Of a stretch of DNA of 64,000 nucleotides, positions 38,255-53,757 are shown piece by piece. Position 1 is the stretch's first letter, and the number at the start of each line of letters is the position of its first letter. Source of the DNA: Rathayibacter sp. VKM Ac-2857 (GTDB lineage: Bacteria > Actinomycetota > Actinomycetes > Actinomycetales > Microbacteriaceae). The position numbers and the translations under genes were made by a program. The notes beneath the pieces are model-generated. The model worked only from the letters and a program-made list of their open reading frames with translations. It ran no database searches and was not told where the DNA came from. The stretch covers positions 1-64,000 of the forward strand of contig NZ_JABMLE010000004.1 in assembly GCF_013205025.1 (NCBI RefSeq), written 5' to 3'.

Positions 38255-38279
38255 GGTCAACCGGTTCGCCTCATATGAT
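38255..38279 (+). promoter_or_regulatory. GntR-type operator and -10 of the SDR-apnL operon
   Basis: GGTCAACCGGTT (38255-38266) contains the same 11-mer GTCAACCGGTT found, inverted, at 47377-47387 and, with one change, at 47420-47430 beside the GntR gene. TATGAT at 38274-38279 is a good -10. The site overlaps the -35 region, so a repressor bound here would block transcription. AAGGAG precedes the ATG at 38310. Confidence 0.65.
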
Positions 38280-38309
38280 CGGAGCAGATCGACTCGAAGG
38301 AGAGCACGC

Positions 38310-39062
38310 ATGACCGGACGCCTCACTGGCAAGACCGCCCTCGTCACCGGAGCCGGCTCCGGCATCGGCCGAGCCGTGGCCGAGCGCTTCGCGCGGGAGG
38401 GCGCCCGGGTCGCCTTCACCGACCGCGACCTCGCCGCCGCGGAGGACGCAGCGGCCGCCTTCCCGGACGCCGTGGCCGTGCAGCTCGACATCTCGGACGA
38501 GAGCAGCGTGGAGCAGGCCTTCGCCCGTCTGGCCGCCGACGGCTTCGCGGTCGACGTGGTCGTCGCGAACGCGGGGGTGCAGCTGTTCGGGCAGGACGCC
38601 AAGATCGCCGACCTCGACCTCGACGTCTGGCGCCGCACGATCGACATCAACCTCACCGGCACGTTCCTCACCGTCAAGCACGCGGTGCGGGCGCTTCTCG
38701 GCCGCGGCGGCTCGATCGTCCTCACCGGTAGCCCGACCGGGCTGAACGGCGAGGGCCAGGACTTCACCGCCTACAGCAGCTCGAAGGCCGGCATGCACGG
38801 CCTCGCCCGGACCGTCGCCGCCGCGTACGCGGGGGAGGGGATCCGCGTCAACACGGTCGTCCCCGGCTACACCGAGACTCCGCTCGTCACCGCGATCTCC
38901 GGCGACGCCGAGGCCCGTGCGGCGATCACCTCGCGCATCCCGCTCGGCCGGCCTGGCTCCGCCGCGGACGTCGAGGGCATCATGGTCTACCTCGCCAGCG
39001 ACGAGTCGAGCTACGCCACCGGCGCGCTCTTCCGCGTCGACGGCGGCATGACCACCCTCTGA
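38310..39062 (+). CDS. SDR-family dehydrogenase, candidate D-apiose dehydrogenase
   Basis: 250 residues. Classical SDR motifs: TGAGSGIG at 13-20, NAG at 87-89, catalytic Ser141, Tyr155 and Lys159 (YSSSK), and a C-terminal DGGM. The Asp at the end of the second beta strand (FTDRD) suggests NAD rather than NADP. It is the first gene of a two-gene operon with the apionate lactonase, two bases apart, and shares an operator with the apionate operon at 47.5 kb. The logical role is oxidation of D-apiose to D-apionolactone. Known D-apiose dehydrogenases are of the Gfo/Idh/MocA family, so this would be a different enzyme family doing the same step. That role is inference. Confidence 0.88.
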   Translation: MTGRLTGKTALVTGAGSGIGRAVAERFAREGARVAFTDRDLAAAEDAAAAFPDAVAVQLDISDESSVEQAFARLAADGFAVDVVVANAGVQLFGQDAKIADLDLDVWRRTIDINLTGTFLTVKHAVRALLGRGGSIVLTGSPTGLNGEGQDFTAYSSSKAGMHGLARTVAAAYAGEGIRVNTVVPGYTETPLVTAISGDAEARAAITSRIPLGRPGSAADVEGIMVYLASDESSYATGALFRVDGGMTTL

Positions 39063-39064
39063 TC

Positions 39065-40858
39065 GTGCCCGCGATCGAGATCCGGCCGGCCGCGCCGACG
39101 GTCCCGCTCGGGCTCCTCCAGGCGGCGGAGCGCGACGAGCGGACGGTGCGCTGCGGCCCGTGGTCGCTGCGGTACTCCGACGGGCGGCTGGACGACGTCC
39201 GCTTCGGCGCGGCGCGGATCCTCCGCGGGGTCCGCGTCGTCGTCCGGGACGAGGACTGGGGCACCTTCGCGACCGTCCGCGCGGCACTGGAGGTCGAGGA
39301 CGACGTCCTGGTCGTCGAGGGCGAGAGTGCCCAGGGCGAGGCGCGCGTCGGATGGACCCTGAGGGTCGTCTTCTCCGACGACTCGCTCTCGGTCGCGCTC
39401 GAGGCGCGTGCGAGCACGGCGTTCCTCCGCAACCGCCTGGGGCTGATCGTGCTGCACGGCATGGAGAGCGCCGGAGCGGCCCTCGAGGTGCGCCACCCGG
39501 ACGGCGGCTCCGAGCGCACCGCCTTCCCCGGCCGGATCGCGCCGCACCAGCCCGCGCAGGACCTCGCCGGACTCGCCTGGACCGCCGATGGCGTCCCGGT
39601 CGAGCTGACCCTGGCGGGCGACGTGTTCGAGACGGAGGACCAGCGCAACTGGACCGACGCATCGTTCAAGACCTATTCGACGCCGCTGAGCCTGCCGTTC
39701 CCGGTCGCGGTCGCCGCGGGCGAGGTCGTCCGGCAGAGCCTGCGGATCGACTGCGCCGGCGCGCCGCCGACGAATGACGACGCGGCGACCGCGTCCGTCT
39801 GCATCCTCCGCACGGGGAGTATCGGGCACCCGCTGCCCGAGATCCGCACCTCCGCCGCGAGCGCGCCGACGGACCTCCGGCCCGGCGTCCGGCCGACGAT
39901 CGATCTGCTGGTCGAGTGCGACGTGCGCTGGACCGGCTGGCGCCGAGCCCTCCGCCGCGCGATCGAGGACGCGGGCGAGCGGCCCGTCGACCTGCGGATC
40001 GTCGCGTCCACTCCCGACGACGTCCGCGCGGTCCTCGACGAGCTGGGCGACGCGCGGCTCTCCCGCCTCGGCGTCTTCGCCGCCAAGGGGCACCGCAGCA
40101 CACCCGAGCTGTTCGAGGAGGCGCGATGCGTCGCGGCCGAACGCGGCATCGAGGTGATCGGCGGCGTCCGCTCGCACTTCACCGAGCTCAACCGCGGTGC
40201 CGACGCGCTCGCGCACGTCGACGGGCCACTCGCCTTCAGCATCACTCCCTTCATGCACGACCGGTCGGGGCACCAGCTCGTCGAGTCCCTCGCCGTGCAG
40301 CGCACGGTGGTCCGGGACGCAGCGGCGATCGCGGACGGCCGACCGCTGCACATCGGGCCGATCACCCTCGGGGCGCGGATGAACGCGGTGTCGACGTCGC
40401 CGTTCGACCCCGGCGCCGCCGACATCGACCGGTCCGGCTACGGCCCGGAGGCCGTGCCGGGCGCGACCGACGAGCGCCAGCAGGCGCCCGAGCTGGCGGC
40501 CTGGGTCGTCGGCAGTCTCGCCGCCCTCGCGGTCCCGGCCGTCGCCTCGCTCGCCTACTTCGAGCAGTGGGGCCCGCGCGGGATCGCCGCGGCGACGGGC
40601 GTCTCTCCCGCGGGCGTCGTGCTCCAGTGGGCGGCGGACCTCGTCGGCTCGCCGCGACTCGAGGTGGACGCGCCGGGGCTGGTCGTGCTCGGAGCGGCCG
40701 CACCGGGCGGCCGCGTGCTGCTGCTCGGCAATCCGGGCGGCACCGCGGTGACGGTCGATCCGGCCGGGATCGAGCGCTGGGAGGCGCACGGGGGAGCCGA
40801 GAGCGAGTTGTTCGTGCTCGAGCCCGGTGCAGCTGCGCGGGTGCTGCTGACGGCGTAG
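39065..40858 (+). CDS. apnL: D-apionate lactonase (ApnL-like)
   Basis: 597 residues. The N-terminal beta domain carries the family landmarks FLRNRLGLIVLHG, FPGRIAPHQP and EDQRNWTDASFKTYSTPL; a central TIM-barrel-like domain and a small C-terminal beta domain (VTVDPAGIERWEAHGG) follow. These motifs are those I recall for ApnL, the lactonase that opens D-apionolactone to D-apionate, a family formerly listed as hypothetical. No signal peptide, so the enzyme is cytoplasmic. Start GTG 39065 follows the SDR stop by two bases. The genes for the next steps (apnO, oiaC) are 12 kb away under the same putative regulator. Confidence 0.82.
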   Translation: MPAIEIRPAAPTVPLGLLQAAERDERTVRCGPWSLRYSDGRLDDVRFGAARILRGVRVVVRDEDWGTFATVRAALEVEDDVLVVEGESAQGEARVGWTLRVVFSDDSLSVALEARASTAFLRNRLGLIVLHGMESAGAALEVRHPDGGSERTAFPGRIAPHQPAQDLAGLAWTADGVPVELTLAGDVFETEDQRNWTDASFKTYSTPLSLPFPVAVAAGEVVRQSLRIDCAGAPPTNDDAATASVCILRTGSIGHPLPEIRTSAASAPTDLRPGVRPTIDLLVECDVRWTGWRRALRRAIEDAGERPVDLRIVASTPDDVRAVLDELGDARLSRLGVFAAKGHRSTPELFEEARCVAAERGIEVIGGVRSHFTELNRGADALAHVDGPLAFSITPFMHDRSGHQLVESLAVQRTVVRDAAAIADGRPLHIGPITLGARMNAVSTSPFDPGAADIDRSGYGPEAVPGATDERQQAPELAAWVVGSLAALAVPAVASLAYFEQWGPRGIAAATGVSPAGVVLQWAADLVGSPRLEVDAPGLVVLGAAAPGGRVLLLGNPGGTAVTVDPAGIERWEAHGGAESELFVLEPGAAARVLLTA

Positions 40859-41049
40859 CGGCACCGCGAGACCGAGGTTCCGTGCCGGTGGCGGCGCCCG
40901 GCGCGACGTCTTGCAGCCCTCGACCGACGTGCGACGACAGAGGACCGTGCCGCCCACACGGTGGTGAGGATCCGTCGGTAGCGTCGTCGGCGGCGCGCGA
41001 GCGCGGGACCCCCGCCCGCGCCGCGCGCCCCTGATCGAGAGGGTCCTCC
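40859..41049 (+). promoter_or_regulatory. Non-coding gap with promoter of the efflux operon
   Basis: This 191-base gap has no gene. TAGCGT at 40979-40984 is a likely -10, which gives a 5' UTR of about 60 bases. A GC-rich imperfect inverted repeat (GCGCGCGAGCGCGGG / CCCGCCCGCGCCGCGCGC) lies at about 40994-41029 in that UTR. Confidence 0.4.
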
Positions 41050-42072
41050 GTGAAGCAACGACGCGTGAAGCAGCGCCGCCCGAAGCAACGACGCCGCGCC
41101 CATCTGAGCGCAGCACTGTCTGCTCTGGCACTGTCCGGACTGCTGGCGCTCTCCGGCTGCTCCGCCCCGGCGGACGAGACGAAGACCGACGAGACGACCT
41201 CGCCGCTGACGGAGTACCTCGGCTCGCTCTACGGCGGCGACCTCTCGCCGGAGGAGCAGGAGGAGAAGTACAAGGAGCAGGACCGAGCGCGCGAGGAGCT
41301 CGTCGCGAAGTGCATGCAGGAGGCGGGCTTCGAGTACACCCCGAGCGTGCAGTCGGCGTCGTTCTCCTCCGACGACGACGCCTACAAGCCGGACGACCGC
41401 GGGTGGGTCGCGCAGTACGGCTACGGTGTCGTCGATTCGCCCGGACGCTACGACTCGGCCGACGCGGAGGACGAGTACGTCGACGCCAACGCCGACTACT
41501 ACGACAGCCTCTCGGAGTCCGAGCAGGCGGCCTGGTCCGAGGCGCTGCACGGCCCGCCGGAGCCGGAGGACGTCGCCGCCTCGGACGACGGGTCCTACGA
41601 GTTCGACTGGACGACGGCGGGCTGCTACGGCGCCGCCTCGCACGAGCTGGAGGAGGACGACCCGACCTCCGGGAAGGAGCACGAGCCGGTGCTCGACGCG
41701 CTGACCGACTTCTACACGGAGCTGCCGTCGGTCCCCGAGCTGGCGGATCTCGATGCGGCCTGGTCCTCCTGCCTGAGCGACGCGGGCTATCCGGGCTTCG
41801 CGACCCAGTTCGACGCCGTGCACTCGATCGACGACAAGATGTCGGCGGTCTACGCGGCGGCCGGCGACCAGCCCGTCGACCCGACGGACCCGAAGCTCGT
41901 CGCCGTGAAGGACGAGGAGATCGAGCTCGCGCTCGCCGACCTCGACTGCCGGGAGAAGACCGACTACGCGGCGGTGCACAAGAAGGTCCAGGACGCGCTG
42001 GAGCAGCAGTTCATCGACGACCACCGGGCCGAGCTGGACGCGCTGAAGGCCGCGGCCGAGCAGGGCGAGTAG
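41050..42072 (+). CDS. Acidic lipoprotein heading a MacAB-like efflux operon
   Basis: 340 residues. A very basic N-terminus (KQRR repeated three times), hydrophobic segment and lipobox LSGC (Cys37) mark a lipoprotein. The mature part is unusually acidic, rich in Tyr, Asp and Glu, with four further Cys that could form disulfides (KCMQEAG, AGCYGA, SSCLSDAGY, LDCREK). No known domain was recognised. The next gene starts directly after its stop, followed by an adaptor, ATPase and permease, so it is likely an extracytoplasmic component of that transporter. The alternative GTG 41065 would remove five residues. Confidence 0.82.
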   Translation: MKQRRVKQRRPKQRRRAHLSAALSALALSGLLALSGCSAPADETKTDETTSPLTEYLGSLYGGDLSPEEQEEKYKEQDRAREELVAKCMQEAGFEYTPSVQSASFSSDDDAYKPDDRGWVAQYGYGVVDSPGRYDSADAEDEYVDANADYYDSLSESEQAAWSEALHGPPEPEDVAASDDGSYEFDWTTAGCYGAASHELEEDDPTSGKEHEPVLDALTDFYTELPSVPELADLDAAWSSCLSDAGYPGFATQFDAVHSIDDKMSAVYAAAGDQPVDPTDPKLVAVKDEEIELALADLDCREKTDYAAVHKKVQDALEQQFIDDHRAELDALKAAAEQGE

Positions 42073-43740
42073 ATGCGCGTCCCCCGTCGCCCGGGCTCGG
42101 GCGATCCGTCCGATCCGTCGTCGATCGATCCGTCGTCGACCGCTCCGACGCCGACCGATCCGCTCGACCTCCTCGCGGTCGCCGAGCCCACGGACGGTGA
42201 CGACAACGACGGCACCGACAGCGGCGACACCGATACGCACCCTCGCCGGGGCCGCTTCGCCGCCCTGGCCGCGGTCGTCTCGCGCAACCGCGTCCTCTGG
42301 ATCGTGGCCGCCGCCGCGCTGCTGAGCCTCGTCGCGGGCCTGCTCGTCGGAAGATTCGTGGTGTCGCCCGCGGAGGCCGCCGCGAATGCGGAACCCTCCG
42401 CCCCCGGCCTGATCACCGCGCCCGTCGAGTTCGGCGCGCTGAGCAACGACGTCACCCTCCGCGGCGAGGTGCGCTACGCGGACGCGGTCGAGGTGACCGT
42501 CGACACGACGTCGATCCAGGGCGCGGCGGTCGTGACCGGTCAGGTCCCCGCGGCCGGCGCAGAGCTCTCGCCGCTGTCGATCGCCCTGGAGATCGCGGGC
42601 CGCCCCGTCATCGTCCTCCCCGGCGAGCTCCCGGCCTACCGGACCCTGCGCTTCGGGGTGTCCGGGCCGGACGTCGTTCAGTTCAAGACCGCGCTGCGCG
42701 GCCTCGGGATCGACGCCGGCGACCCCGCCGACGACGTCTTCGACGAGACGGCCGCGAACGCGGTCACCGAGCTCTACGCCCAGGCCGGCTACGCGCCGCC
42801 CGCGACGCAGGAGGACGGCGAGGACGTCGTCCGTGCCGCCCAGGAGGCGCTGCGGTCGGCCGAGCAGGGATTCGTCGCCGCGCAGAAGGACCTCGACGAC
42901 GCCCTGGCGGGCTCCTCGCCGGTCGAGGTCCGCGAGGCCGACATCGCGGTCGCCGGCGCACGCCGCGAGCTGGAGGCCGCCCGCTCGGCCGAGCCGCCGG
43001 ACGGACTCCGCATCGCGGACCTCGACGACGCGCTCGGCCTGGCCGAGCTCAAGCGGTCCCAGCTGGGCGCGAGCACCGACACCGGTGCGCAGCGCGGCGC
43101 CGTCGAGTCCGCGCAGTCCCAGGTGGCGCAGGCGCAGGAGGACCTCACCCGGGCTCGTCAGTCGGTCCTGCCGGCCCTCCCCGCCGGCGAGGTCCTCTTC
43201 CTGACCTCGCTCCCGCGGCGGGTCGACGCGGTCACCGCCAAGCGCGGTAGCGTCCTGTCCGGCGCGGCGATGACCGTCTCGGGCGCACAGCTCGAGCTCT
43301 CCGGGTCCGCCGCCGAGGCCGATGCGCGCCTGCTCTCGGTCGGTCAGAAGGCGACGTTCGAGCTGCCGGATCGCGCCTCGCACGGCGCCGTCGTCTCGGG
43401 AGTGGACCCCGCGAAGGACGGCAAGGGCCGCTGGACGGTGACGCTGACCCCCGACCCGCTCTCGCCGGAGCAGATCGAGCAGTTGCGCGACACCAACGTC
43501 AAGGTCTCGGTCGCCGTCGGAGCGACGGAGGGCGCCGTGCTCTCGGTCCCGGTCGCCGCGCTGTCCGCGGGCTCCGGCGGCGAGAGCCGGGTCGAGGTCG
43601 TCGAGGGTGACCCGCGCGATCCCGGCGCCGCCAGCCGACTCGTCGTCGTCAGCACCGGTCTCGCCGCGAAGGGGGCGGTCGAGGTCACGGCCGTGGACGG
43701 GGCGCTCGACGAGGGCGACCTGGTCGTGGTCGGCCGGTGA
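42073..43740 (+). CDS. Efflux adaptor with peptidoglycan-binding domain
   Basis: 555 residues. A cytoplasmic Pro/Ser/Asp-rich N-terminus (1-70) precedes one membrane helix (LWIVAAAALLSLVAGLLVGRFVV). The outside part contains a PG_binding_1-like domain (about 195-240, FGVSGPDVVQFKTALRGLGIDAG), a long coiled-coil hairpin (about 255-370) and barrel-sandwich and beta-barrel regions typical of HlyD/MacA adaptors. In a monoderm it would link the MacB permease to the cell wall instead of an outer membrane. ATG 42073 directly follows the lipoprotein stop, and the TGA overlaps the ATPase GTG. Confidence 0.85.
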   Translation: MRVPRRPGSGDPSDPSSIDPSSTAPTPTDPLDLLAVAEPTDGDDNDGTDSGDTDTHPRRGRFAALAAVVSRNRVLWIVAAAALLSLVAGLLVGRFVVSPAEAAANAEPSAPGLITAPVEFGALSNDVTLRGEVRYADAVEVTVDTTSIQGAAVVTGQVPAAGAELSPLSIALEIAGRPVIVLPGELPAYRTLRFGVSGPDVVQFKTALRGLGIDAGDPADDVFDETAANAVTELYAQAGYAPPATQEDGEDVVRAAQEALRSAEQGFVAAQKDLDDALAGSSPVEVREADIAVAGARRELEAARSAEPPDGLRIADLDDALGLAELKRSQLGASTDTGAQRGAVESAQSQVAQAQEDLTRARQSVLPALPAGEVLFLTSLPRRVDAVTAKRGSVLSGAAMTVSGAQLELSGSAAEADARLLSVGQKATFELPDRASHGAVVSGVDPAKDGKGRWTVTLTPDPLSPEQIEQLRDTNVKVSVAVGATEGAVLSVPVAALSAGSGGESRVEVVEGDPRDPGAASRLVVVSTGLAAKGAVEVTAVDGALDEGDLVVVGR

Positions 43741-44417
43741 CCGCTCCGCTGGTCGAGCTGCGGGACGTCACGCGCTCCTTCCCCGGTCCGCCCGAGGTAC
43801 AGGCGCTGAAGGGCGTGAGCCTCCGCATCGAGGAGGGCGACTACGTCTCGATCGTCGGCCCCAGCGGCTCCGGCAAGTCGACGATGCTGAACATCCTCGG
43901 CCTGCTCGACCGGCCGAGCGTCGGCGAGTACCGCCTCGACGGCGCCCTCACCGGAGCGCTCGACGAGGACACCCGGGCGGCCGTCCGCGCGCAGCGCATC
44001 GGCTTCGTCTTCCAGTCCTTCCACCTGCTGCCGCGGCGCACCGTGCTCGAGAACGTGATGCTGCCGATGCTCTACAGCGGGACCCCGCGGGCCGCCCGCG
44101 AGGCGCGCGCCCGCGACGCCCTGCTCCGGGTCGGACTCGGGCACCGGCTCGGCTTCCTGCCGACGACGCTCTCCGGCGGCGAGCGTCAGCGGGTCGCCGT
44201 GGCGCGGGCGGTCGTCGCGCGTCCGAGTCTCCTCCTGGCCGACGAGCCCACCGGGAACCTGGACGGCTCGACCACCGAGGACGTCATGCGGCTCTTCGAG
44301 GACCTCACGGACACCGGGCTCACCCTCGTCGTGATCACGCACGATCTCGCCGTCGCGCGGCGGGCGCGCCGCTGCCTCCGCATCGCCGACGGACGGATGC
44401 AGGAGGTGACGGCGTGA
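43737..44417 (+). CDS. ABC transporter ATP-binding protein, MacB/LolD type
   Basis: 226 residues with Walker A GPSGSGKST, the LolD-family Q-loop FVFQSFHLLPRRTVLENV, signature LSGGERQRVAVARA, Walker B LLLADEPTGNLD and H-loop THD. It energises the separate MacB-type permease that follows. GTG 43737 overlaps the adaptor stop (GTGA), and its own stop overlaps the permease GTG. Confidence 0.92.
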   Translation: MTAPLVELRDVTRSFPGPPEVQALKGVSLRIEEGDYVSIVGPSGSGKSTMLNILGLLDRPSVGEYRLDGALTGALDEDTRAAVRAQRIGFVFQSFHLLPRRTVLENVMLPMLYSGTPRAAREARARDALLRVGLGHRLGFLPTTLSGGERQRVAVARAVVARPSLLLADEPTGNLDGSTTEDVMRLFEDLTDTGLTLVVITHDLAVARRARRCLRIADGRMQEVTA

Positions 44418-45724
44418 GCCCCGTGCTCGCGGCGCTCCGCCGCCGGTTCCGGCGCCGGCGACCGCGCTCGGCCGCCGCGTCCCCGCTGCTGCGGCCCGTC
44501 CGCCGCGCCGACCGCTTCACCGCCGCGGACCTCCTCGCCGAGGCCACCTCCGACATCGGCACCCGGCCCGCCCGGCTGGTGATGACCCTGCTCGGCACGG
44601 TGCTCGGCATCGGCGCCCTCGTCGCCACGATCGGCTTCGCGCAGACGACCGCCGGTCAGCTCGCCCGCCGGTTCGACGCCTTCGCCGCGACCCAGGTCGT
44701 CGTGCAGCCGGCCGAGGCGGAGAACTCCTCCGGCGACAGCGTCGCCACCGGGCGGCTGCCCTGGGACGCCGTCGACCGCGTCCGCCGCCTCGCCGGCGTC
44801 GAGCAGGCGGCCGTCGTGGGCGAGGTGTCCCTGCGCGAGGGGGCGAGCATCACCGCGGTCCCCGTCAACGACCCGTCCGCGCCCGCCGCCGCGCCGCCGC
44901 GGCTGTTCGCCGCCTCCGCCGATCTCCTCGACACGCTGGAGGGCGACGTGACCGCCGGGCGGATGTTCGACTCCGGACACGACGCCCGCGCCGACCGGGT
45001 GGTCGTGCTCGGCGCCCGTGCGGCGGAGCGGCTCGGGGTGGAGCGCGTCGACTCCCGGCCCTCGATCCTGATCGACGGCGTCGCCTACTCGGTCCTCGGG
45101 CTCTTCGCCGACGTCCAGGCGCGCGCCGAGCTGCTCGACGCGGTCGTCCTCCCCACGGGCACCGCGCGCGCCGACTTCGCGCTCGCGACGCCGGGCGACC
45201 TCCAGGCGCGCATCGACATCGGCGCCGGGCCGCAGGTCGCGGCGCAGGCACCGCTGACCCTGGCCCCCGACTCTCCCGACTCCGTCTCCGTCGCGGCACC
45301 CGGCGGCCGATCGGAGCTCGCGGGCGACGTCCGCGCCGACGTCGACCTGGTGTTCCTGATCCTCTCGGTGGTTGTGCTGCTCGCGGGCGGGGTCGGCATC
45401 GCCAACGTCACCACGCTGTCGGTGATGGAGCGCGTCGGCGAGATCGGCCTCCGCCGTGCGCTCGGCGCCACACGGCGCCGGATCGCCCAGCAGTTCATCG
45501 TCGAATCGGCCGTGATCGGCCTCCTCGGCGGTCTGGTCGGAGCGGCGACCGGCGTCCTCGCCGTGCTCTCGGTCTCACTCGCGCAGCAGTGGACCCCGGT
45601 GCTCGACCCCGGTGTGGCGTTCGGCGGGGCGCTCCTCGGCGCGCTGATCGGGCTGCTGGCGGGCAGCGTGCCGGCCCGACGCGCCTCCCGTATCGAGCCG
45701 ATCGCGGCCCTTCGCGGGACCTGA
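44414..45724 (+). CDS. MacB/FtsX-type ABC permease
   Basis: 436 residues with four membrane helices: one after the N-terminal basic region (LVMTLLGTVLGIGALVATIGFA), then a 240-residue extracellular MacB_PCD domain, then three at the C-terminus (LVFLILSVVVLLAGGVGIANV, SAVIGLLGGLVGAATGVLAV, FGGALLGALIGLLAGSVPARRASRIEPIAALR). This type carries out mechanotransmission rather than substrate passage through the membrane. It completes a lipoprotein-adaptor-ATPase-permease operon for efflux of a peptide, lipid or antibiotic; substrate unknown. Confidence 0.9.
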   Translation: MSPVLAALRRRFRRRRPRSAAASPLLRPVRRADRFTAADLLAEATSDIGTRPARLVMTLLGTVLGIGALVATIGFAQTTAGQLARRFDAFAATQVVVQPAEAENSSGDSVATGRLPWDAVDRVRRLAGVEQAAVVGEVSLREGASITAVPVNDPSAPAAAPPRLFAASADLLDTLEGDVTAGRMFDSGHDARADRVVVLGARAAERLGVERVDSRPSILIDGVAYSVLGLFADVQARAELLDAVVLPTGTARADFALATPGDLQARIDIGAGPQVAAQAPLTLAPDSPDSVSVAAPGGRSELAGDVRADVDLVFLILSVVVLLAGGVGIANVTTLSVMERVGEIGLRRALGATRRRIAQQFIVESAVIGLLGGLVGAATGVLAVLSVSLAQQWTPVLDPGVAFGGALLGALIGLLAGSVPARRASRIEPIAALRGT

Positions 45725-45779: not shown

Positions 45780-46490
45780 TCAGCCGAGCAGCGTGTACGT
45801 GGACGCGTCCAGGTACACCGTGCTGTCGGTGCAGACCTCGATCGCGGCGGGCGCGCGGACGGCGGCATCGGCCGCGTCGATCACCTCGGCGACCAGGAAC
45901 GTCGACGTCGCGGTCGGGCAGCCGAAGGCGCCGGGGGAGTGCCAGGCGACCCGGACGTCCGCCTGCGCCGCCGGAGCGAGGGCGAGCAGGCCGGACGGGT
46001 TCGGGCCGTCGGCGGAGGCGACCGCGCCGAGGCGGCTGCCGTCGGCCCCGGCGGCGTAGACCCCGGGGATGCCGGCGAGGGTGCAGGCGCGGTCCGTCGT
46101 GTTCGTGAAGACCAGGTCGAAGGCGCTGCTGCCCGCGCCGGACGCGTCGGGATCGGGGCGGTACTCGAGCGAGAGGTCGCTCCCGACGCAGCGGACGGTC
46201 TCGGGCTCGGGCGCCGGCGCGGGCGGCTGGGACGCGGTCGGCGCCGGGGCGGGGGTCTCCGGGGCGGTCGTCGGCGCCGGCTCCGCGGACGGAGCGAGCG
46301 ACGCTGCGGCCGTCGCCGTCGCGGTGGGCGTGACGGAGGGGGTGGGCGTGATGGTGGCCGTCGCGCTCGGCCGCGGCAGCGGCGAGGTCGTGGAGGCGAT
46401 GCCGGCGCGCCCCGCGCAGCCGGTGACGAGGAGGCCGACCGCGGCGAGGGTCAGGGCCGCCGCGGCACCGCGGCGCAGGAGGTGGCTCAT
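45780..46490 (-). CDS. DUF4232 lipoprotein
   Basis: 236 residues. Signal peptide with lipobox LVTGC (Cys25), a 75-residue Pro/Ala/Thr/Ser-rich linker that would span the cell wall, then a C-terminal DUF4232 domain (LEYRPDPDASGAGSSAFDLVFTNTTDRACTLAGIPGVYAAG) with Cys pairs. DUF4232 proteins are secreted actinobacterial proteins of unknown function. It converges with the efflux operon (55-base gap). Confidence 0.85.
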   Translation of the reverse strand: MSHLLRRGAAAALTLAAVGLLVTGCAGRAGIASTTSPLPRPSATATITPTPSVTPTATATAAASLAPSAEPAPTTAPETPAPAPTASQPPAPAPEPETVRCVGSDLSLEYRPDPDASGAGSSAFDLVFTNTTDRACTLAGIPGVYAAGADGSRLGAVASADGPNPSGLLALAPAAQADVRVAWHSPGAFGCPTATSTFLVAEVIDAADAAVRAPAAIEVCTDSTVYLDASTYTLLG

Positions 46491-46588: not shown

Positions 46589-47323
46589 TCAGCTCCCGGT
46601 GTCCGCCAGCCGCCGCGACGCGGTGCTCATGTGCGCCTCCATCGCCCTCGCAGCGGCGGCGGGATCGCGCGCCTCGATCGCCTCGAGCACGGCACGGTGC
46701 TCGGTGAAGGCGTCGCGAGCCTGCTCCGGGCTGCTCAGCGCGCGCTCGACCCAGAGCCGCAGCAGGGAGCGGATGGTCTGCAGCAGATCGCGCAGCACGA
46801 CGTTCTCCGCACTGAGGGCGATCTGGAGGTGGAAGCGCACGTCGGCCTCGACGAAGGCCGCGATGTCGTCGAGGTGCGACTCCATCGCCTCGAGGTGCGC
46901 GTGCAGCCTGGCGAGTCCCTCGTCGTCGATCCGGAGCGCCGCCAGCATCGCCGCCTGCACCTCGAGCCCACTGCGCACCTCGATCAGCTCGGCGGTGCGG
47001 CCGGCCGAGAGCATCAGGCCCCAGCTCAGCGTCGTCGGCAGCAGCTCGGAGGTGCTGTCGCGGAGGTAGGTGCCGGAGCCGGGCCGCACCGTGACGATGC
47101 CGAGGATCTCCAGCGCCGCGAGCGCCTCCCGCACCGCCGAGCGGCCGACGCCGAGGCTCTCGGCGAGCTGGCGTTCCGGCGGGAGGCGGGAGCCGGGCAC
47201 GAGGTCGCCGCGGGTGAGCAGCGAGGTGAGCTGCTTGGCGACCTCGGCGACGGCGGTGCCGCGGGGGAGGACCTGCAGCTCCAGGCGCACGAGGGACGGG
47301 TCGTCTTCGGGGTACGCCGGCAT
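46589..47323 (-). CDS. GntR/FCD-family regulator of the apiose genes (predicted)
   Basis: 244 residues. The N-terminal GntR winged helix (LTRGDLVPGSRLPPERQLAESLGVGRSAVREALAALEILGIVTVRPGSGTYL) is followed by an all-helical FCD ligand domain with the metal/ligand-binding pattern FVEADVRFHLQIALSAEN and FTEHRAVLEAIEARDPAAAARAMEAHM. FCD regulators usually sense sugar acids or related carboxylates. It is divergent from the apionate operon and has operator-like sites between. A -10 TACGGT (complement 47330-47335) lies six bases before ATG 47323, so the mRNA is probably leaderless. A ligand such as apionate or erythrulose is inferred. Confidence 0.9.
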   Translation of the reverse strand: MPAYPEDDPSLVRLELQVLPRGTAVAEVAKQLTSLLTRGDLVPGSRLPPERQLAESLGVGRSAVREALAALEILGIVTVRPGSGTYLRDSTSELLPTTLSWGLMLSAGRTAELIEVRSGLEVQAAMLAALRIDDEGLARLHAHLEAMESHLDDIAAFVEADVRFHLQIALSAENVVLRDLLQTIRSLLRLWVERALSSPEQARDAFTEHRAVLEAIEARDPAAAARAMEAHMSTASRRLADTGS

Positions 47324-47375
47324 GCTCCGACCGTAGCAACCGCGCCGACGCCGCACCCGCAGCGACTCGACCGGA

Positions 47376-47437
47376 GAACCGGTTGACAACCGCGGCCCCG
47401 GCACGGCATCCTCTAATTGGTCAACCGGTCAGCCAAT
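47376..47437. promoter_or_regulatory. Tandem GntR-type operators of the apionate operon
   Basis: Site 1, AACCGGTTGAC (47377-47387), is the exact reverse complement of the 11-mer upstream of the SDR gene and runs into a perfect -35 TTGACA (47383-47388). Site 2 is a 22-base imperfect palindrome with arms ATTGG (47416-47420) and CCAAT (47433-47437) around TCAACCGGTCAG. Both fit the TGGTnnACC half-site style of FCD regulators. Confidence 0.65.
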
Positions 47438-47508
47438 TCCCCCGAAGGCGGCCCGAGCCCCACCCCGCACCACCCAACACAGTCGTTGACACGGATCAGG
47501 AGATCGAC

Positions 47509-48882
47509 GTGGACCTTCCCTCCCGCACAGGCGGAACCGCGACGGCGGACGCCGCCGTCGAGAAGAGCGCCATCAGGAAGGTGTCGATCCGGCTCGTGCC
47601 GTTCGTCGCCCTGATGTTCTTCATCAACTACCTCGACCGGACGGCCATCGGCTTCGCCGCGCCGAACGGCATGGAGGCCGACCTCGCCCTCTCGGCGGCC
47701 CAGTTCGGCTTCGCCTCGGGCGTCTTCTTCATCGGCTACATCCTGCTGGAGGTGCCGAGCAACCTCGCGCTGCACCGCTTCGGCGCCCGCCGCTGGCTCG
47801 CCCGCATCATGGTCAGCTGGGGCATCGTGGCGCTCCTCTTCACCTGGGTGCAGAACTTCGAGCAGCTCGTCGCCCTGCGCTTCCTGCTTGGTGTCGCCGA
47901 GGCCGGCTTCTTCCCCGGCGCGATCCTCTTCCTCAGCCTCTGGGTGCCGGCCAAGCACCGCTCGAAGATCCTCGCGCTCTTCTACCTGGCGCAGCCGCTC
48001 ACCACGGTGATCGGCGCCCCGCTCGCCGGCTTCCTGATCGAGCAGGACGGCATCCTCGGCCTCGAGGGCTGGCGCTTCATGTTCCTCGGCGTCTCGCTGC
48101 CCGCGATCGTCGTGGGCGTCATCGCCTGGTTCTACCTCAAGGACAAGCCCTCCGACGCGAAGTGGCTGACCCGCGAGGAGCAGGTCTGGCTGACCACCGC
48201 GCTGAAGCGCGAGGAGGACGTCAAGACCAAGGGCGTCACCACGCACCCCAAGATGTCCTCCGCCTTCAAGAGCGGCCGCGTCTGGATGCTGAGCTTCGTC
48301 TACTTCGGCTTCATCTACGGCCTCTACGCGCTCGCCTTCTTCCTGCCCACGATCATCGAGGGCTTCCAGGAGCAGTACGGCACCACCTTCGGCATCTTCG
48401 AGAAGGGCCTGATCACCGCGATCCCCTACGTGCCCGCGGCCATCGCCCTCTACCTCTGGTCGCGCGACGCCACCCGCCGCGGCGTGCGCACCTGGCACAT
48501 CGTGATCCCCGCGATCGTCGGTGGCCTGAGCATCCCGCTCGCGCTCTTCGCCGGCTCCCCGGCGGCCACGATCGCCGTGATCACCGTCACCGCGATGGCG
48601 ATCTTCTCGGCGCTGCCCAACTTCTGGACCTTCCCGACCCGGTTCCTCACCGGCGCGGCGGCGGCCGCGGGCATCGCGCTGATCAACACGATCGGCAACC
48701 TGGCCGGCTTCTCGGCCCCGTACATCACGGGCGCCCTGAAGGACGCGACCGGCGGCTACGAGGTCCCGATGGTCATCGTCGGCTTCTTCCTGCTGCTCTC
48801 CGCGGTGCTGATGTCCCTCCTCGCGCGCCGCTACAAGGACGCACCGCTCGACGCCCCGAGCGTCGACGTGATCGCGCACTGA
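47509..48882 (+). CDS. MFS transporter, anion:cation symporter (ACS) type, candidate apionate/apiose importer
   Basis: 457 residues and twelve membrane helices. The block FINYLDRTAIGFAAPNGMEADLALSAAQFGFASGVFFIGYILLEVPSNLALHRFGARRWLARIMVSWG is typical of the ACS family, whose members import glucarate, galactonate, tartrate and similar organic anions. GTG 47509 is selected because AGGAGA lies five bases upstream. First gene of the six-gene operon behind the GntR sites, so D-apionate, apionolactone or D-apiose is the likely substrate (inference). Confidence 0.88.
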   Translation: MDLPSRTGGTATADAAVEKSAIRKVSIRLVPFVALMFFINYLDRTAIGFAAPNGMEADLALSAAQFGFASGVFFIGYILLEVPSNLALHRFGARRWLARIMVSWGIVALLFTWVQNFEQLVALRFLLGVAEAGFFPGAILFLSLWVPAKHRSKILALFYLAQPLTTVIGAPLAGFLIEQDGILGLEGWRFMFLGVSLPAIVVGVIAWFYLKDKPSDAKWLTREEQVWLTTALKREEDVKTKGVTTHPKMSSAFKSGRVWMLSFVYFGFIYGLYALAFFLPTIIEGFQEQYGTTFGIFEKGLITAIPYVPAAIALYLWSRDATRRGVRTWHIVIPAIVGGLSIPLALFAGSPAATIAVITVTAMAIFSALPNFWTFPTRFLTGAAAAAGIALINTIGNLAGFSAPYITGALKDATGGYEVPMVIVGFFLLLSAVLMSLLARRYKDAPLDAPSVDVIAH

Positions 48883-48938
48883 GCACCCGCACGACCTGCT
48901 GACCGCCCGACGCCGCCCCTCCCCGAACAGGACTCCTG

Positions 48939-50699
48939 ATGACCCGGCTCTACAACGACCCGTCCGACTTCGCCGACGAGATGATCGACGGCTTCGTCGC
49001 CGCGAACCGCCGCTTCGTGCGGCGGGTGCAGGGCGGCGTGGTGCGCTCGACCGTGAGCGCGCCCGGCTCGGTCGCCCTCGTGGTGGGCGGCGGCTCCGGC
49101 CACTACCCGGCGTTCGGCGGACTCGTCGGGCAGGGGCTCGCGCACGGCGCGGCGATGGGGAACCTCTTCGCCTCGCCGTCCGCGCAGCAGGTGCACTCGG
49201 TCGCCGCGGCGGCCGAGCACGGCGGCGGCGTGCTGCTCAGCTACGGCAACTACGCGGGCGACGTGCTCAACTTCGACGCGGCCGAGCGGCGCCTCCGCGA
49301 CGAGGGGATCGACGTCCGCACCGTCACGGTGACGGACGACGTCTCGAGCGCGAGCGTCGCCGAGAAGCACAAGCGCCGAGGGATCGCGGGCGATCTGACG
49401 GTCTTCAAGGTCGCGGGCGCCGCGGCGGAGGAGGGCGCGTCGCTGGACGAGGTCGAGCGCATCGCCCGCCTCGCCAACGAGCGCACCCGCTCCTTCGGCG
49501 TGGCGTTCTCGGGCTGCTCGCTGCCCGGGGCGTTGGAGCCGCTGTTCACCGTGCCGGAGGGTCGGATGGCGGTCGGCATGGGCATCCACGGGGAGCCCGG
49601 CATCCGCGAGGACGACGTGCCCACGGCCGACGGTCTCGCCGAGCTGCTGGTCTCGTCCCTGCTCGCCGAGCTGCCCGACGGCGTCGACGCGGCCGAGGGC
49701 TCGCGCCTCGTCGTCGTGCTGAACGGGCTCGGCTCCGTGAAGTACGAGGAGCTGTTCGTCGTCTACGCCGGCGTCGAGCGGCGCCTGCGCGAGCGCGGCC
49801 TCGAGGTGCTCGAGCCCGAGGTCGGCGAGCTCGTCACGAGCTTCGACATGGCCGGCGTCTCACTCACCTTCTTCTGGGTCGACGACGAGCTGGAGCGGCT
49901 CTGGGCCGCGCCGGCCGAGGCTCCCGCGTACCGCAAGGGCTCGGTCCGCCCCGCCGAGCAGGCCGCTGTGACGGAGCAGGAGACGACCGCGGTCGTCATC
50001 GGCGAGGCGAGCGACGATTCCCGCGACGCCGCCCGCACCGTGCTCGCCGCTCTCGAGGCGACGCAGTCCACGATCGACGAGAACGCCGACGAGCTCGGCC
50101 GGATCGACGCGGTCGCCGGCGACGGCGATCACGGCATCGGCATGCAGCGCGGCGTGCACGCGGCGGTCGCCGCCGCCCGGGCCGCGCTCGAGGCCGGCGC
50201 CGGGGCGGGAACCGTGCTCGCCCATGCCGGCGATGCCTGGTCCGACCGGGCCGGCGGCACCTCCGGAGCGCTTTGGGGCGCCGCGCTCGCCGCGGTCGGC
50301 TCGGCGCTCGGCGACACCGCCGCGCCCACGGCCGCCGCGGTGGTCGAGGGGGTCGACGGCGCCCGCGCGGCGATCCTCCGCTTCGGCGCGACGCCGGGCG
50401 ACAAGACGATGGTCGACTCCCTCGTCCCCTTCGCCGACGTCCTCGGCGAGGCCGTCGCCGCGGGGGAGGAGCTGCCCGCGGCCTGGACCCGGGCCGCCGA
50501 GGCCTGCACGACCGCCGCCGCCGCGACCGCGCAGCTGCTGCCGAAGATGGGCCGCGCCCGGCCGCACGCCGAGAAGAGCCTCGGCACCCCCGACGCCGGG
50601 GCGCACTCGCTCGGGCTCATCGTCACCGCGATCGGCGCGGTGCTGCGGGCGGGCGCCTCCGTCTCCGCGACCCCCGGCTCTGTCGGCAGCGGCGCGTAG
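48939..50699 (+). CDS. lerK: L-erythrulose kinase (DhaK-DhaL fusion, LerK-like)
   Basis: 586 residues. A DhaK domain (1-330) with [12 protein letters not shown] and the substrate-binding His217 in GIHGEPG is fused to a DhaL domain (about 365-580) with the metal/ATP motif AGDGDHGIG (around 392-400). This one-piece ATP-dependent architecture matches dihydroxyacetone-type kinases and in particular the L-erythrulose 1-kinases known from mycobacteria. The two isomerases that follow are the exact partners needed to carry L-erythrulose 1-phosphate to erythrose 4-phosphate, which supports L-erythrulose over dihydroxyacetone as substrate. Confidence 0.85.
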
Positions 50700-50745
50700 C
50701 GTCGACCCCGTCCCCACGACCGCTTCCAGCAAGGAGAGAACACCC

Positions 50746-51246
50746 ATGAGCGCACCCCTCCGCCTCGTCGTCGGCTCCGACGACGCCGGTCTCGACTACA
50801 AGGAGATCGTCAAGGCCGACCTCGAGAAGGACTCCCGCGTCGCGTCCGTCGTCGACGTCGGCGTCGACGCCTCGTCGCACACGCCCTACCCGAGCGTCGC
50901 CATCGCCGCCGCCGAGATGGTCGCCCGCGGCGACGCCGACCGCGCGATCCTGATCTGCGGCACCGGGCTCGGCGTCGCGATCGCCGCCAACAAGGTGGCC
51001 GGCATCCGCGCCGTCACCGCGCACGACTCGTTCTCGGTCGAGCGCTCGATCCTCTCCAACGACGCGCAGGTGCTCTGCATGGGCCAGCGCGTCGTCGGCA
51101 TCGAGCTCGCGCGCCGCCTCGCGAAGGAGTGGCTCGGCTACGAGTTCGACAGCTCCTCCGCCTCCGCCGAGAAGGTGCGCGTGATCGAGGCCTACGAGGC
51201 CGGCAACCCGGTCGCGGACGACGCCGCCACGGTCGGCTCGTGCTGA
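50746..51246 (+). CDS. derI: RpiB-like D-erythrulose-4-phosphate isomerase (DerI-like)
   Basis: 166 residues of the RpiB/LacAB fold: [18 protein letters not shown] at the N-terminus, catalytic Cys in [32 protein letters not shown], and the phosphate-binding Arg/His region. In erythritol and tetrose pathways an RpiB homologue converts D-erythrulose 4-phosphate to D-erythrose 4-phosphate. AAGGAGAG precedes ATG 50746. Its stop overlaps the next gene by seven bases. Substrate assigned from operon context. Confidence 0.85.
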
Positions 51247-52052
51247 GCCGCGCCGCCGGGGACGCCCCGGCGTTCACCGTCGGCGTGAGCCTCAAGATGT
51301 ACTTCGGGCACGCGCGGACGCTCGAGTGGATGCAGCGCATCGCCGAGATCGCGCGGACGCACGAGGCGACCGCCTCGGGAGCCGTCGAGCTGTTCGTGGT
51401 GCCGACCTTCCCCGCGCTGGTGCCGGTCGGCGCCCTCGCGGCGGAAACCGGAGTCGCGCTCGGCGCGCAGGACCTGTTCTGGGAGGACGCGGGAGCGTTC
51501 ACCGGCGAGGTCAGCGGTGCGGAGCTGCGCGAGGTCGGCTGTCGGCTGGTCGAGATCGGCCACGCCGAGCGGCGCGCGCTCTTCGGTGACGACGACGAGC
51601 GCGTGCGCGCGAAGGTCGCGGCGGCGTTCCGCAACGACCTCGTCCCGCTGCTCTGCGTCGGCGAGACCGAGCGCGGCTCCGTCGAGGACGCCGTCGAGCT
51701 CGTGCTCGCGCAGATCGGCTCCGCCCTCGCGGACGCGGACGAGGCCGGCGCCGTCGGCCCGATCCTCGCCGCCTACGAGCCGGTCTGGGCGATCGGCGCC
51801 CCCGAGCCCGCCGAGCCGGCCTTCATCGCCGGCGTCGTCACCGCGCTCGAGGCGGCGCTCGCGCAGCTCCCCGGCCGCGCCGGCAGCCGCGTCATCTACG
51901 GCGGCAGCGCCGGACCCGGGCTCCTGACCGCGCTCGAGGGCCGCGTGCCCGGGCTGTTCCTCGGCCGCTTCGCGCACGACCCCGAGGCGGTCGGCGCGAT
52001 CTTCGACGAGGCGCTCGCTCTCGTGCGCGCCGACTTGGAGGCCCGATCGTGA
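51240..52052 (+). CDS. lerI: TIM-like L-erythrulose-1-phosphate isomerase (LerI-like)
   Basis: 270 residues of triosephosphate-isomerase fold. The catalytic residues are present: Lys19 (SLKMYF), His in VEIGHAERR and Glu in AYEPVWAIG, together with the phosphate loop YGGSAGPGL. The first strand reads VGVSLKMYF instead of the housekeeping GNWKMN, as expected for the erythrulose-phosphate branch (LerI/EryH). It would convert L-erythrulose 1-phosphate to D-erythrulose 4-phosphate. GTG 51240 overlaps derI, and the stop overlaps oiaC. Confidence 0.85.
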
Positions 52053-52870
52053 GCCGCATCGGGCTGAGCAGCTACGCCTTCTTCTGGCGCTCCTCCGATC
52101 GCGTCCCCGAGCCGCTCGGCGTCGAGGCCATGGTCCGCGAGACCGCCGCGCTCGGCGTCGACCTGCTGCAGCTCTGCGACGTGCCGGCGCTCGAGGAGTA
52201 CTCGGACGAGCAGCTCGCGTCGCTGCGCGCGGTCGCGAACGCCGAGGGGGTCGGGCTCGAGCTCGGCACCCGCGGCACCGATCCCGCGCACCTGCGCCGC
52301 TGGCTCCGCCTGGCCCGCGCGCTCGACGTCGTGCTGCTGCGCAGCATGTGGACGTCGGGGGAGGACCGGCCGGACCGCGCCGAGACGCTGCGGCGCCTGC
52401 GCGAGATCGCGCCCGAGCTGGAGGAGGCCGGCGTCACGCTGGCCCTGGAGACCTACGAGCAGGTGAGCACGGCCGACCTCGTCGACGTGATCGCGACGCT
52501 CGATCACCCGCGGATCCGGATCTGCCTCGACCCGGCGAACACCGTCGCGAACCTCGAGCTGCCGGAGGACGTCACCGCCCGCTGCGCCCCGTACGTCGCC
52601 AACTGGCACGTGAAGGACTTCGACTTCAGCCGCAATCCCGGCTGGGTCGGCTTCGTCTACACCGGCACGGCGCTCGGCGACGGCCGCCTCGACTACGACG
52701 CCATGCTCGCGCTGCTGCAGCCGGCGGAGCGCGGCATCACCCAGATCATCGAGTTCTGGCTCCCCTGGCAGGACACCGTCCCCGCCGCGGAGCAGGCGCT
52801 CGTCACCACCCGGCTCGAAGCCGAGTGGACCCGCACCACCCTCGACCAGCTCAGGAGAAGGAACTCATGA
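52049..52870 (+). CDS. oiaC: 3-oxo-isoapionate decarboxylase (OiaC-like TIM barrel)
   Basis: 273 residues of the xylose-isomerase-like TIM barrel family. Metal-binding acids and histidine occur in the expected order: LALETYEQVS, ICLDPANTVANLE, NWHVKDFDFSRNPGWVGFVYTGTALGDGRLDY and IEFWLPWQD. OiaC decarboxylates 3-oxo-isoapionate to L-erythrulose. Assignment rests on fold, the adjacent apnO-like gene that makes the substrate and the L-erythrulose kinase upstream that uses the product. GTG 52049 overlaps lerI, and its TGA overlaps the apnO ATG. Confidence 0.8.
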   Translation: MSRIGLSSYAFFWRSSDRVPEPLGVEAMVRETAALGVDLLQLCDVPALEEYSDEQLASLRAVANAEGVGLELGTRGTDPAHLRRWLRLARALDVVLLRSMWTSGEDRPDRAETLRRLREIAPELEEAGVTLALETYEQVSTADLVDVIATLDHPRIRICLDPANTVANLELPEDVTARCAPYVANWHVKDFDFSRNPGWVGFVYTGTALGDGRLDYDAMLALLQPAERGITQIIEFWLPWQDTVPAAEQALVTTRLEAEWTRTTLDQLRRRNS

Positions 52871-53757
52871 CCGACACCACCGCCACCACCGCCCCGGGCA
52901 CCGCCGCCTCCGCCCTCACCGTCGCCGTCATCGGCGCCGGCGGCAAGATGGGCATGCGGGTCTCGAACAACCTGCAGAAGTCCGAGTACAACGCCCTCTA
53001 CAGCGAGGCCTCGCCCGCCGGCCAGGAGCGCACCCGCGAGGCGGGCCGCGAGATCACCGCGACGCCCGACGCCGTGAAGGACGCCGACGTCGTCATCCTC
53101 GCCGTGCCGGACGTCGTGCTCGGCGCGGTCTCGGAGGACGTGATCCCGCAGATGAAGAGCGGCGCGATCATCCTCACCCTCGACCCGGCCGCCGCCTACG
53201 CGGGGCTGCTCGCGAAGCGCGAGGACATCCACTACGCCGTGGCGCACCCGTGCCACCCGTCGGTGTTCCTCGAGCGCACCACCCCGGAGGAGTGGGCCGA
53301 CACGTTCGGCGGCATCGCCGCGCCGCAGGAGGTCGTCGCCGCCCTCGAGGACGCCGACGACGACGTGCGGGCGATCGCGGGGAAGGTCATCTCGACCATC
53401 TACGCGCCCGTCATCGCCGTGCACTGGGTGACCGTCAAGCAGCTCGCGGTGCTCGAGCCGACCCTGGTCGAGACCATCGCCTGCATGGTCGGCGAGTTCC
53501 TCAAGGAGGCGCTGGACGAGACCGTCAACGGCGTCGGCGTGCCCTACGAGGCGGCCCGCGCGATGCTCTACGGCCACACCTGGATCGCGCTGACCAACGG
53601 CCTGCGCGGCTCGAACCCCTTCTCGGAGGCGTGCCACATCGCCATGGGCTACGGCCGCGAGGCGCTGATCAAGGACGACTGGAAGAAGATCTTCGACGAC
53701 TCGGAGCTCGACTCCGTCATCGCCAAGATGCTGAAGATCGACGCCGTCAAGCGCTGA
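52867..53757 (+). CDS. apnO: D-apionate oxidoisomerase (ApnO-like)
   Basis: 296 residues. N-terminal Rossmann motif VAVIGAGGKMGMRVSNNL binds NAD(P), the DVVILAVPDVVLGAV and LDPAAAYAGLL strands and the THPCHPSVF-type motif (VAHPCHPSVF) follow, and a helical C-terminal domain (LVETIACMVGEFLKEALDE) completes the 6-phosphogluconate-dehydrogenase-like fold. These features agree with ApnO, which oxidises and rearranges D-apionate to 3-oxo-isoapionate. The gene ends the operon and begins with AAGGA five bases before the ATG. A large hairpin lies downstream. Confidence 0.83.
   Translation: MTDTTATTAPGTAASALTVAVIGAGGKMGMRVSNNLQKSEYNALYSEASPAGQERTREAGREITATPDAVKDADVVILAVPDVVLGAVSEDVIPQMKSGAIILTLDPAAAYAGLLAKREDIHYAVAHPCHPSVFLERTTPEEWADTFGGIAAPQEVVAALEDADDDVRAIAGKVISTIYAPVIAVHWVTVKQLAVLEPTLVETIACMVGEFLKEALDETVNGVGVPYEAARAMLYGHTWIALTNGLRGSNPFSEACHIAMGYGREALIKDDWKKIFDDSELDSVIAKMLKIDAVKR

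Follow-up and report, generated by a model that had tools for sequence, protein, structure and literature searches.

In a 64,000-nucleotide stretch of DNA from Rathayibacter sp. VKM Ac-2857 (positions 1 to 64,000 of contig NZ_JABMLE010000004.1, which we call the window), eight genes in two operons probably form a catabolic unit for D-apiose and D-apionate, controlled by a GntR-family regulator and leading to erythrose 4-phosphate. We give this reading a probability of about 0.72. The genes encode a short-chain dehydrogenase/reductase (SDR), an ApnL-like lactonase, a major facilitator superfamily (MFS) transporter, and LerK-like, DerI-like, LerI-like, OiaC-like, and ApnO-like proteins. Gene calls, family searches, and alignments confirmed that all eight lie where a preliminary description of this DNA had placed them, belong to the expected families, and have conserved catalytic-type residues. 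That description had also proposed the route to erythrose 4-phosphate, and family matches and a conserved gene neighborhood back this assignment. Besides these, we observed a motif shared by the two operons and a tie between the SDR and the lactonase. (The host genome is 4.6 Mb and of the Rathayibacter type, and the lactonase's nearest named relatives are from Rathayibacter sp. VKM Ac-2856, VKM Ac-2754, and Leaf185.)

In the proposed pathway, the SDR would oxidize D-apiose to D-apionolactone, with NAD+ as the acceptor. The ApnL-like enzyme would open the ring of the lactone to give D-apionate, and the MFS transporter could import D-apionate directly. The ApnO-like enzyme would oxidize and isomerize D-apionate to 3-oxo-isoapionate, which the OiaC-like barrel would decarboxylate to L-erythrulose. 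Then the LerK-like kinase would phosphorylate L-erythrulose, and the LerI-like and DerI-like isomerases would convert the product to D-erythrose 4-phosphate. The GntR regulator would act on GGTCAACCGGTT-type palindromes ahead of both operons and would presumably be released by a pathway intermediate. All of the substrates and products are predictions, as are the cofactor, the cargo of the MFS transporter, the binding of the motif by the regulator, and the inducer.

Most of these steps look like known ones from other bacteria, but the first enzyme seems to be of a new kind. Novelty lies in the SDR, in the regulon defined by its operator, and in the architecture of the lactonase. We lean towards the view that a separate D-apiose dehydrogenase exists in the Actinomycetota, an SDR that is unrelated to the Gfo/Idh enzyme ApsD and that lies inside a GntR regulon (palindrome ATTGGTCAACCGGTTGAC). 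In Arthrobacter, this regulon would also cover apioside-splitting glycosidases and importers. The paired lactonase would combine a mutarotase-like domain with a GH-A-type barrel, a predicted architecture with no PDB relative that is detectable by sequence search.

The SDR (38310-39062, plus strand) matches PF13561 (adh_short_C2; E = 5.8e-62) and is proposed to be a D-apiose 1-dehydrogenase that is non-orthologous to ApsD. Asn114, Ser141, Tyr155, and Lys159, which we take to be the catalytic positions from what is known of the family, are conserved among 33 homologues, and Asp38, presumably a sign of NAD+ preference, is present in at least 95% of them. (Our sets for residue conservation count some genomes twice and exclude any row that has an internal stop or no more than 200 residues.)

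To place the SDR among its neighbors, we used a survey of 248 genomes of the order, scored with at most 10, 9, and 5 first-look candidates per genome. (The three survey draws were taken to be the same 248 genomes, since the handles listed agree, and gene-to-gene distances were read by hand.) The SDR is found in 19 of these genomes (E of at most 1e-80; at least 69% identity), ApnL in 24, and ApnO in 30. All 19 genomes with the SDR also have both ApnL and ApnO. If genomes were independent, the overlap of the SDR with ApnO would arise by chance with a probability of about 4e-21; kinship makes this figure overstated, though the trend it points to is clear. Of the 19 genomes, 16 have the SDR within 5 kb of ApnL and 9 have it within 5 kb of ApnO. 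In this genome and in G060, G106, G132, G134, G176, and G202, the SDR-ApnL pair and ApnO are separated by over 5 kb or lie on different contigs. (ApnL is in two pieces in G106 and G202 and is partial in G134.)

A set of 80 ApnL loci, the best of 247 ApnL-bearing stretches, gave a similar picture. Several of these loci share one organism (L017 and L020; L021 and L022; L027 and L033), and some are short or run to contig ends. Counting SDRs at 55% identity or above and Gfo/Idh-type dehydrogenases at 30% identity or above to a probe from Roseibium, 25 loci have the SDR, 21 have the Gfo/Idh type, none have both, and 34 have neither. (Weak matches were excluded: the SDR in L061, at 35%, and L076, at 27%, and the Gfo/Idh type in L038, at 26-27%.) Judging by record titles, all 25 loci with the SDR are from Actinomycetota. 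The Roseibium gene for the Gfo/Idh/MocA (ApsD-type) dehydrogenase had no match, at E up to 1e-12, in the window or in the 25 SDR loci; a 28% relative is found elsewhere in this genome, on a different contig, at a locus that we call L100. On balance, the SDR goes with the lactonase, as expected of an aldose dehydrogenase, and it is probably the non-orthologous D-apiose dehydrogenase of the Actinomycetota. If so, the SDR is a testable new dehydrogenase for a step that is otherwise held by an unrelated family.

The ApnL-like protein (39065-40858, plus strand), a putative D-apionolactonase, matches the D-apionate lactonase model NF049900 (E = 8.5e-57), and its neighborhood with ApnO and OiaC agrees with this assignment. 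The protein matched no Pfam family, and a sequence search found no relative in PDB. Its structural model (pLDDT 93) predicts a galactose-mutarotase-like N-terminal domain, a glycosidase-type barrel, and a C-terminal sandwich. The top Foldseek rows for the whole model are glycosidases of families GH36 and GH97 with TM-scores of just 0.20-0.26, and our statement about the fold is based on a second look at the structure matches and on a separate model of the N-terminal domain.

The second operon begins with the MFS gene (47509-48882, plus strand). The transporter belongs to MFS_1 and is of the D-galactonate type (TIGR00893; E = 1.9e-82; 277 bits, with a cut-off of 395); we propose that it imports D-apionate. 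The OiaC-like protein (52049-52870, plus strand) is a xylose-isomerase-type barrel (PF01261, AP_endonuc_2; E = 2.2e-21; 77.1 bits, with a cut-off of 31.1), the fold of OiaC, and it is the candidate 3-oxo-isoapionate decarboxylase. Glu134, Asp161, His187, and Glu235, which we assume from family knowledge to be its metal-binding or catalytic positions, are invariant in 42 sequences. The start codon of the ApnO-like gene (52867-53757, plus strand) overlaps the stop codon of the OiaC-like gene. Its product, the putative D-apionate oxidoisomerase, matches PF16896 (PGDH_C; E = 1.4e-57; 194.5 bits, with a cut-off of 25), has PDB relatives 5t57 (E = 1.8e-65) and 3c24 (E = 1.1e-52), and has 28 positions that are invariant across 50 sequences. 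(ApnO presumably carries an NAD-binding domain and a PGDH_C domain.)

Between these genes lie the three for the predicted L-erythrulose branch. The LerK-like protein (48939-50699, plus strand) is a kinase of the DAK family, with Dak1 and Dak2 domains, and is proposed to be an L-erythrulose 1-kinase (NF011049; E = 7.2e-222; 738 bits, with a cut-off of 492). The DerI-like protein (50746-51246, plus strand) is a putative isomerase of the RpiB family (LacAB_rpiB) that scores above the cut-off for the actinobacterial RpiB model TIGR02133 (196.8 bits versus 168.2). The LerI-like protein (51240-52052, plus strand), a putative TIM-family isomerase, matches PF00121 (E = 2.9e-50), and its second-best match in PDB is an L-erythrulose-1-phosphate isomerase (11ef; E = 8.6e-37). 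Lys19, His108, and Glu180, its catalytic positions as we assume from the family, are conserved in 22 homologues.

The genome has relatives of these three genes elsewhere. There are two further LerK/DerI pairs (L098 and L099, on C2 and C3), with identities of 63% and 78-81% in one and of 54-56% and 69% in the other. One of them is near a galactonate-type MFS gene; the other adjoins a zinc-type dehydrogenase gene, with an ABC importer of the ribose or xylose type in the vicinity, a setting like that of tetritol operons. A separate TIM gene (C4:309809) is 36% identical to the LerI-like gene, and a separate RpiB relative is 30% identical to the DerI-like gene. Given the further pairs, the separate TIM gene, and the RpiB relative, the copies in the window need not serve housekeeping. 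(A more distant DhaK/DhaL-like pair has 40% and 35% identity. In a tree of 24 LerK-like kinases, which excluded fragmented matches and those below 500 residues (L025, L031, and L092, for example), the backbone did not resolve.)

The proposed repressor of both operons is a GntR/FCD (FadR-type) regulator (46589-47323, minus strand; PF00392, E = 1.9e-19; PF07729, E = 2.3e-28), with orthologues of 52-65% identity in Arthrobacter, Planosporangium, Nocardioidaceae, Nakamurella, and Actinoallomurus. Its presumed operator, GGTCAACCGGTT (38255-38266, plus strand), lies about 45 bp upstream of the start of the SDR. A motif scan found a second operator-like copy, GTCAACCGGT (47378-47387, minus strand), facing the regulator. 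Before the MFS operon is a palindromic operator-like site, TTGGTCAACCGGTCAGCCAA (47417-47436), which is the sole site in the genome within 3 mismatches of TTGGTCAACCGGTTGACCAA. Exact copies of GTCAACCGGT occur in the window at 38256, 47378 (minus strand), and 47420, and allowing one mismatch gives 9 matches in the window versus a mean of 2.69 in shuffles. In the whole 4.6 Mb genome there are just two exact copies of the 11-mer GGTCAACCGGT, one ahead of each operon (the second is at 47419).

The motif is conserved along with the genes. Among 15 Rathayibacter genomes (this one and 14 congeners), 9 have a close orthologue of OiaC (at least 86% identical), and all 9 have the SDR, ApnL, GntR, LerK, DerI, LerI, OiaC, and ApnO together. 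All 8 congeners that have the cluster carry GTCAACCGGT ahead of the SDR, and 7 of them have three exact copies in the same places. The remaining one, G010, is without the MFS gene and has two copies, before the SDR and before LerK. Across the 80 ApnL loci, GGTCAACCGGT is present in 25 of the 29 that have an orthologue of the regulator (at least 50%) or of the SDR (at least 55%), versus 1 of the 51 that have neither. That one (L013) is an ApnL locus from Arthrobacter in which the motif lies a short way ahead of ApnL. Of the 29, L012, L027, L033, and L034 lack the exact motif; the last three of these have one-mismatch sites before OiaC. In Arthrobacter, Planosporangium, and Actinoallomurus, the site is often widened to ATTGGTCAACCGGTTGAC. 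The shared presumed operator supports placing both operons in a single GntR regulon, as the preliminary description had suggested. One clear palindrome that marks the presumed regulon could allow likely apiose users to be found among actinobacteria. (A promoter scan found no sigma-70-like site; a terminator scan found 3 sites versus 1.3, with a standard deviation of 1.3, in shuffles.)

The motif also leads to other genes. In four Arthrobacter loci (L016, L022, L028, and L031), it is followed by a solute-binding protein, two permeases, a PF13204 ("Apiosidase-like") glycosidase, ApnL, and the SDR. (Pfam scans covered L028 and the permeases of L031; the other genes were assigned by position and similarity.) The glycosidase, with PF13204, DUF5060, and DUF5605, is directly upstream of ApnL and the SDR, and a sequence search at E up to 0.001 found a single solved relative for it, 4n0r, a "putative glycoside hydrolase." The motif-linked importer and glycosidase are likely an extension of the regulon to apiosides. 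PMC11747546 names plant rhamnogalacturonan II, aquatic monocots, and many plant secondary metabolites as sources of apiose.

The gene set recurs in other organisms. ApnL, ApnO, OiaC, LerK, LerI, and DerI are together in 11 of the 80 ApnL loci (two from Rathayibacter and nine from Arthrobacter), and 8 of these 11 have the SDR. Because the same genes recur together in other genera, their association is well beyond chance. Plasmids of Erwinia sp. E602 and Pantoea sp. At-9b have MFS-LerK-LerI-OiaC-ApnO in the same order as in the window, with 51-70% identity. They differ in having a "sugar-binding transcriptional regulator" (the label in the record) instead of GntR and a divergent rpiB that is 45-46% identical to the DerI-like gene, and we found no ApnL or SDR in the 24.8 kb stretches from these plasmids. 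A portable module for D-apionate, with an apiose-oxidizing pair as an addition, would account for this pattern. The module from apionate to erythrose 4-phosphate appears to be common to Actinomycetota and Erwiniaceae plasmids.

All 11 full loci have an MFS gene, as do 8 of the 9 clusters of the genus. The preliminary description had called the choice of transporter unusual, and we reject this: the MFS transporter is the module's usual carrier and is conserved with it, though absent from G010. It had also presented the joining of the apionate route to the L-erythrulose route as a property of this actinobacterium. The joined gene set holds up but is not particular to this organism, since it is complete in Rathayibacter and Arthrobacter and partial in Nocardioidaceae and on the Erwiniaceae plasmids.

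The observation itself is confirmed and the pathway reading is likely, but the route is a variant of a known one and is common to many relatives. The oxidative D-apiose pathway of Carter et al. 2018 is said to consist of ApsD, ApnL, and ApnO, followed by OiaC or RuBisCO-like proteins. (ApsD is a Gfo/Idh/MocA-type dehydrogenase.) The window likewise has lactonase-like, oxidoisomerase-like, and xylose-isomerase-type decarboxylase-like genes, but its first dehydrogenase is an SDR, and it has a C4 branch within the same presumed regulon. In Roseibium aggregatum, the neighbors of an ApnL homologue are a Gfo/Idh/MocA dehydrogenase, an ApnO homologue, and a RuBisCO-like protein. The last of these had no match in the window, the only part of this genome that was searched for it (3-oxo-isoapionate kinase was not sought), and RuBisCO-like proteins are in 7 of the 80 ApnL loci. 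The mycobacterial LerK-LerI-DerI branch has the same kinase family and the same two isomerase families as the window, but the window's branch would be fed by decarboxylation of 3-oxo-isoapionate and not by a tetritol dehydrogenase. The joined route may already be drawn in Carter et al. 2018 or in the 2015 JACS tetritol paper. Curtobacterium is another genus of Microbacteriaceae. A Curtobacterium was isolated on L-erythrulose, and PMC12780249 describes tetrose kinases and carriers as not reported. According to PMC10733421, LerI and DerI, together with LerK and EltD, work in E. coli, and RuBisCO-like variants are cited in a 2018 review (PMC6302742). PMC11747546 (from 2025) describes growth on D-apiose by a Rhodobacteraceae strain whose gene cluster covers D-apiose dehydrogenase, apionolactonase, apionate oxidoisomerase, 3-oxoisoapionate kinase, and a decarboxylase, which supports our reading of the pathway. 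Among the titles listed for apionate, isoapionate, apionolactonase, or apiose with Arthrobacter, none dealt with the pathway in Actinobacteria.

Several observations weigh against a D-apiose unit. The preliminary description had suggested comparing the proteins to models of their named counterparts, and the outcome was mixed. The LerK-like kinase exceeds the cut-off of NF011049, but the ApnL-like protein scores 193 bits, in two stretches, versus the equivalog cut-off of 750 for NF049900 (we use the name "ApnL-like" because of this miss), and it shares only some 30% identity with most homologues from proteobacteria. The DerI-like protein scores 139 bits versus the 240 needed for the DerI equivalog NF051858, whose name ends in "Rhiz," so this model may be unduly narrow as a test. 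The NCBIfam search gave no hit to a model for OiaC or ApnO. The tie between the SDR and ApnL also has gaps. Of the 24 survey genomes with ApnL, 5 have no SDR; in G045 and G061 the two genes are far apart, with ApnL adjoining ApnO, and in G236 the distance between them is 9 kb. Among the 80 ApnL loci, some of which are short, 34 have neither type of dehydrogenase nearby. Two copies of GGTCAACCGGT in 4.6 Mb are no excess over base composition, and a reversed control pattern occurs once, elsewhere; the weight of the operator lies in its position and conservation and not in its copy number. Finally, no apiosidase or sugar importer is linked to the operator in this genome, whose sole PF13204 gene is on another contig without the operator.

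The core, from the MFS gene to ApnO, could instead be a module for scavenging D-apionate, and the SDR-lactonase pair could be a broader aldose-oxidizing add-on that feeds it, not a dedicated D-apiose dehydrogenase. This would fit the Erwiniaceae stretches, which have the core without ApnL or the SDR, the absence of the SDR from 11 of the 30 ApnO-bearing survey genomes, and the MFS transporter's resemblance to acid-sugar carriers. But the SDR is confined to genomes with ApnL and ApnO and is never with the Gfo/Idh type in the 80 loci, and in the four Arthrobacter loci the SDR-ApnL pair sits behind the glycosidase and the sugar importer with the same motif. As for the plasmids, a gene of the SMP-30/gluconolactonase family and aldehyde dehydrogenases lie nearby in the Pantoea stretch, which may therefore have another way of producing its own aldonate. 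We consider a scavenging core with a broader add-on unlikely.

Another idea is that the unit is for tetritols or L-erythrulose and that the SDR is a tetritol dehydrogenase like DthD. The GolD/DthD family model does match the SDR, at 158 bits (the cut-off is 286), and the other LerK/DerI pairs of the genome lie in tetritol-like surroundings. However, we know of no place for ApnL, ApnO, or OiaC in the breakdown of tetritols, and in L011, L015, L032, and L034 the SDR is with these three genes and no LerK was found (L015 ends at a contig end just past ApnO). Because the SDR pairs with the lactonase, a role as a tetritol dehydrogenase is the less likely one for it, and we think a tetritol unit highly improbable. 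There is also a very faint chance that the true substrate is another branched aldonate, such as hamamelonate. To our knowledge, no ApnL member from this clade has been characterized, and the low identity to most proteobacterial ApnL homologues would be compatible with a different substrate. But a six-carbon acid would decarboxylate to a pentulose, which we would expect to be a misfit for a DAK kinase, TIM-like, and RpiB-like set acting on a C4 ketose. And the published hamamelose route, going by a title cited in PMC10176493, uses a RuBisCO-like protein, none of which matched in the window. We prefer the D-apiose and D-apionate unit to these alternatives.

The two halves of this unit are separated by other genes. 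A four-gene efflux-type operon (41065-45724, plus strand), which does not belong to the pathway, encodes a lipoprotein, an adaptor-like protein, an ABC ATPase (43737-44417, plus strand; ABC_tran, E = 1.2e-30), and an FtsX/MacB permease (44414-45724, plus strand; FtsX, E = 1.9e-19; MacB_PCD, E = 3.1e-14). Its first two genes (41065-42072 and 42073-43740) matched no Pfam family, and the adaptor label of the second was assigned by eye. Besides the present genome, G007, G009, and G011 have the operon in their clusters, whereas the clusters of G004, G006, G008, G010, and G013 lack it. The adaptor-like gene is in 3 of the 14 congeners (E up to 1e-30), always inside the cluster and nowhere outside it. 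As the efflux-type operon is variable (4 of the 9 clusters of the genus), the split reflects the gain or loss of a cargo operon and is not a feature of the pathway; we reject the idea of a special design, and the split is not unusual in the way that was first described. Next to the efflux-type operon is a gene for a DUF4232 protein (45780-46490, minus strand; PF14016, E = 2.1e-17), which is also in 4 of the 5 congeners whose cluster is without the efflux-type operon.

We also noticed three other sets of genes. The PF13204 glycosidase of this genome is 62% identical to the Arthrobacter one. It is at L100 (C1:1576000-1592000), in an operon with an importer, a Gfo/Idh dehydrogenase, and a 246-amino-acid protein, and a regulator of the LacI family is divergent from it. 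Between the operon and this regulator is a AACCGGTT-type palindrome that is distinct from the GntR site. We rejected this glycosidase as a member of the unit, as it is not linked to the operator and sits with the LacI-family regulator, the importer, and the Gfo/Idh gene. In three Arthrobacter loci (L018, L023, and L039), ApnL and the SDR are followed by a family-5 solute-binding protein with ABC genes and a GH1 glycosidase (Pfam scans were run for L018 only), and in L018 a one-mismatch motif lies ahead of these genes. In Actinoallomurus iriomotensis (L061), a perfect palindrome of the GntR motif precedes genes for an aldo/keto reductase, an ApnL relative, a 2-hydroxyacid dehydrogenase, an HpcH-type aldolase, and an SBD_N/NBD_C-type kinase, which is possibly another route for a branched acid.

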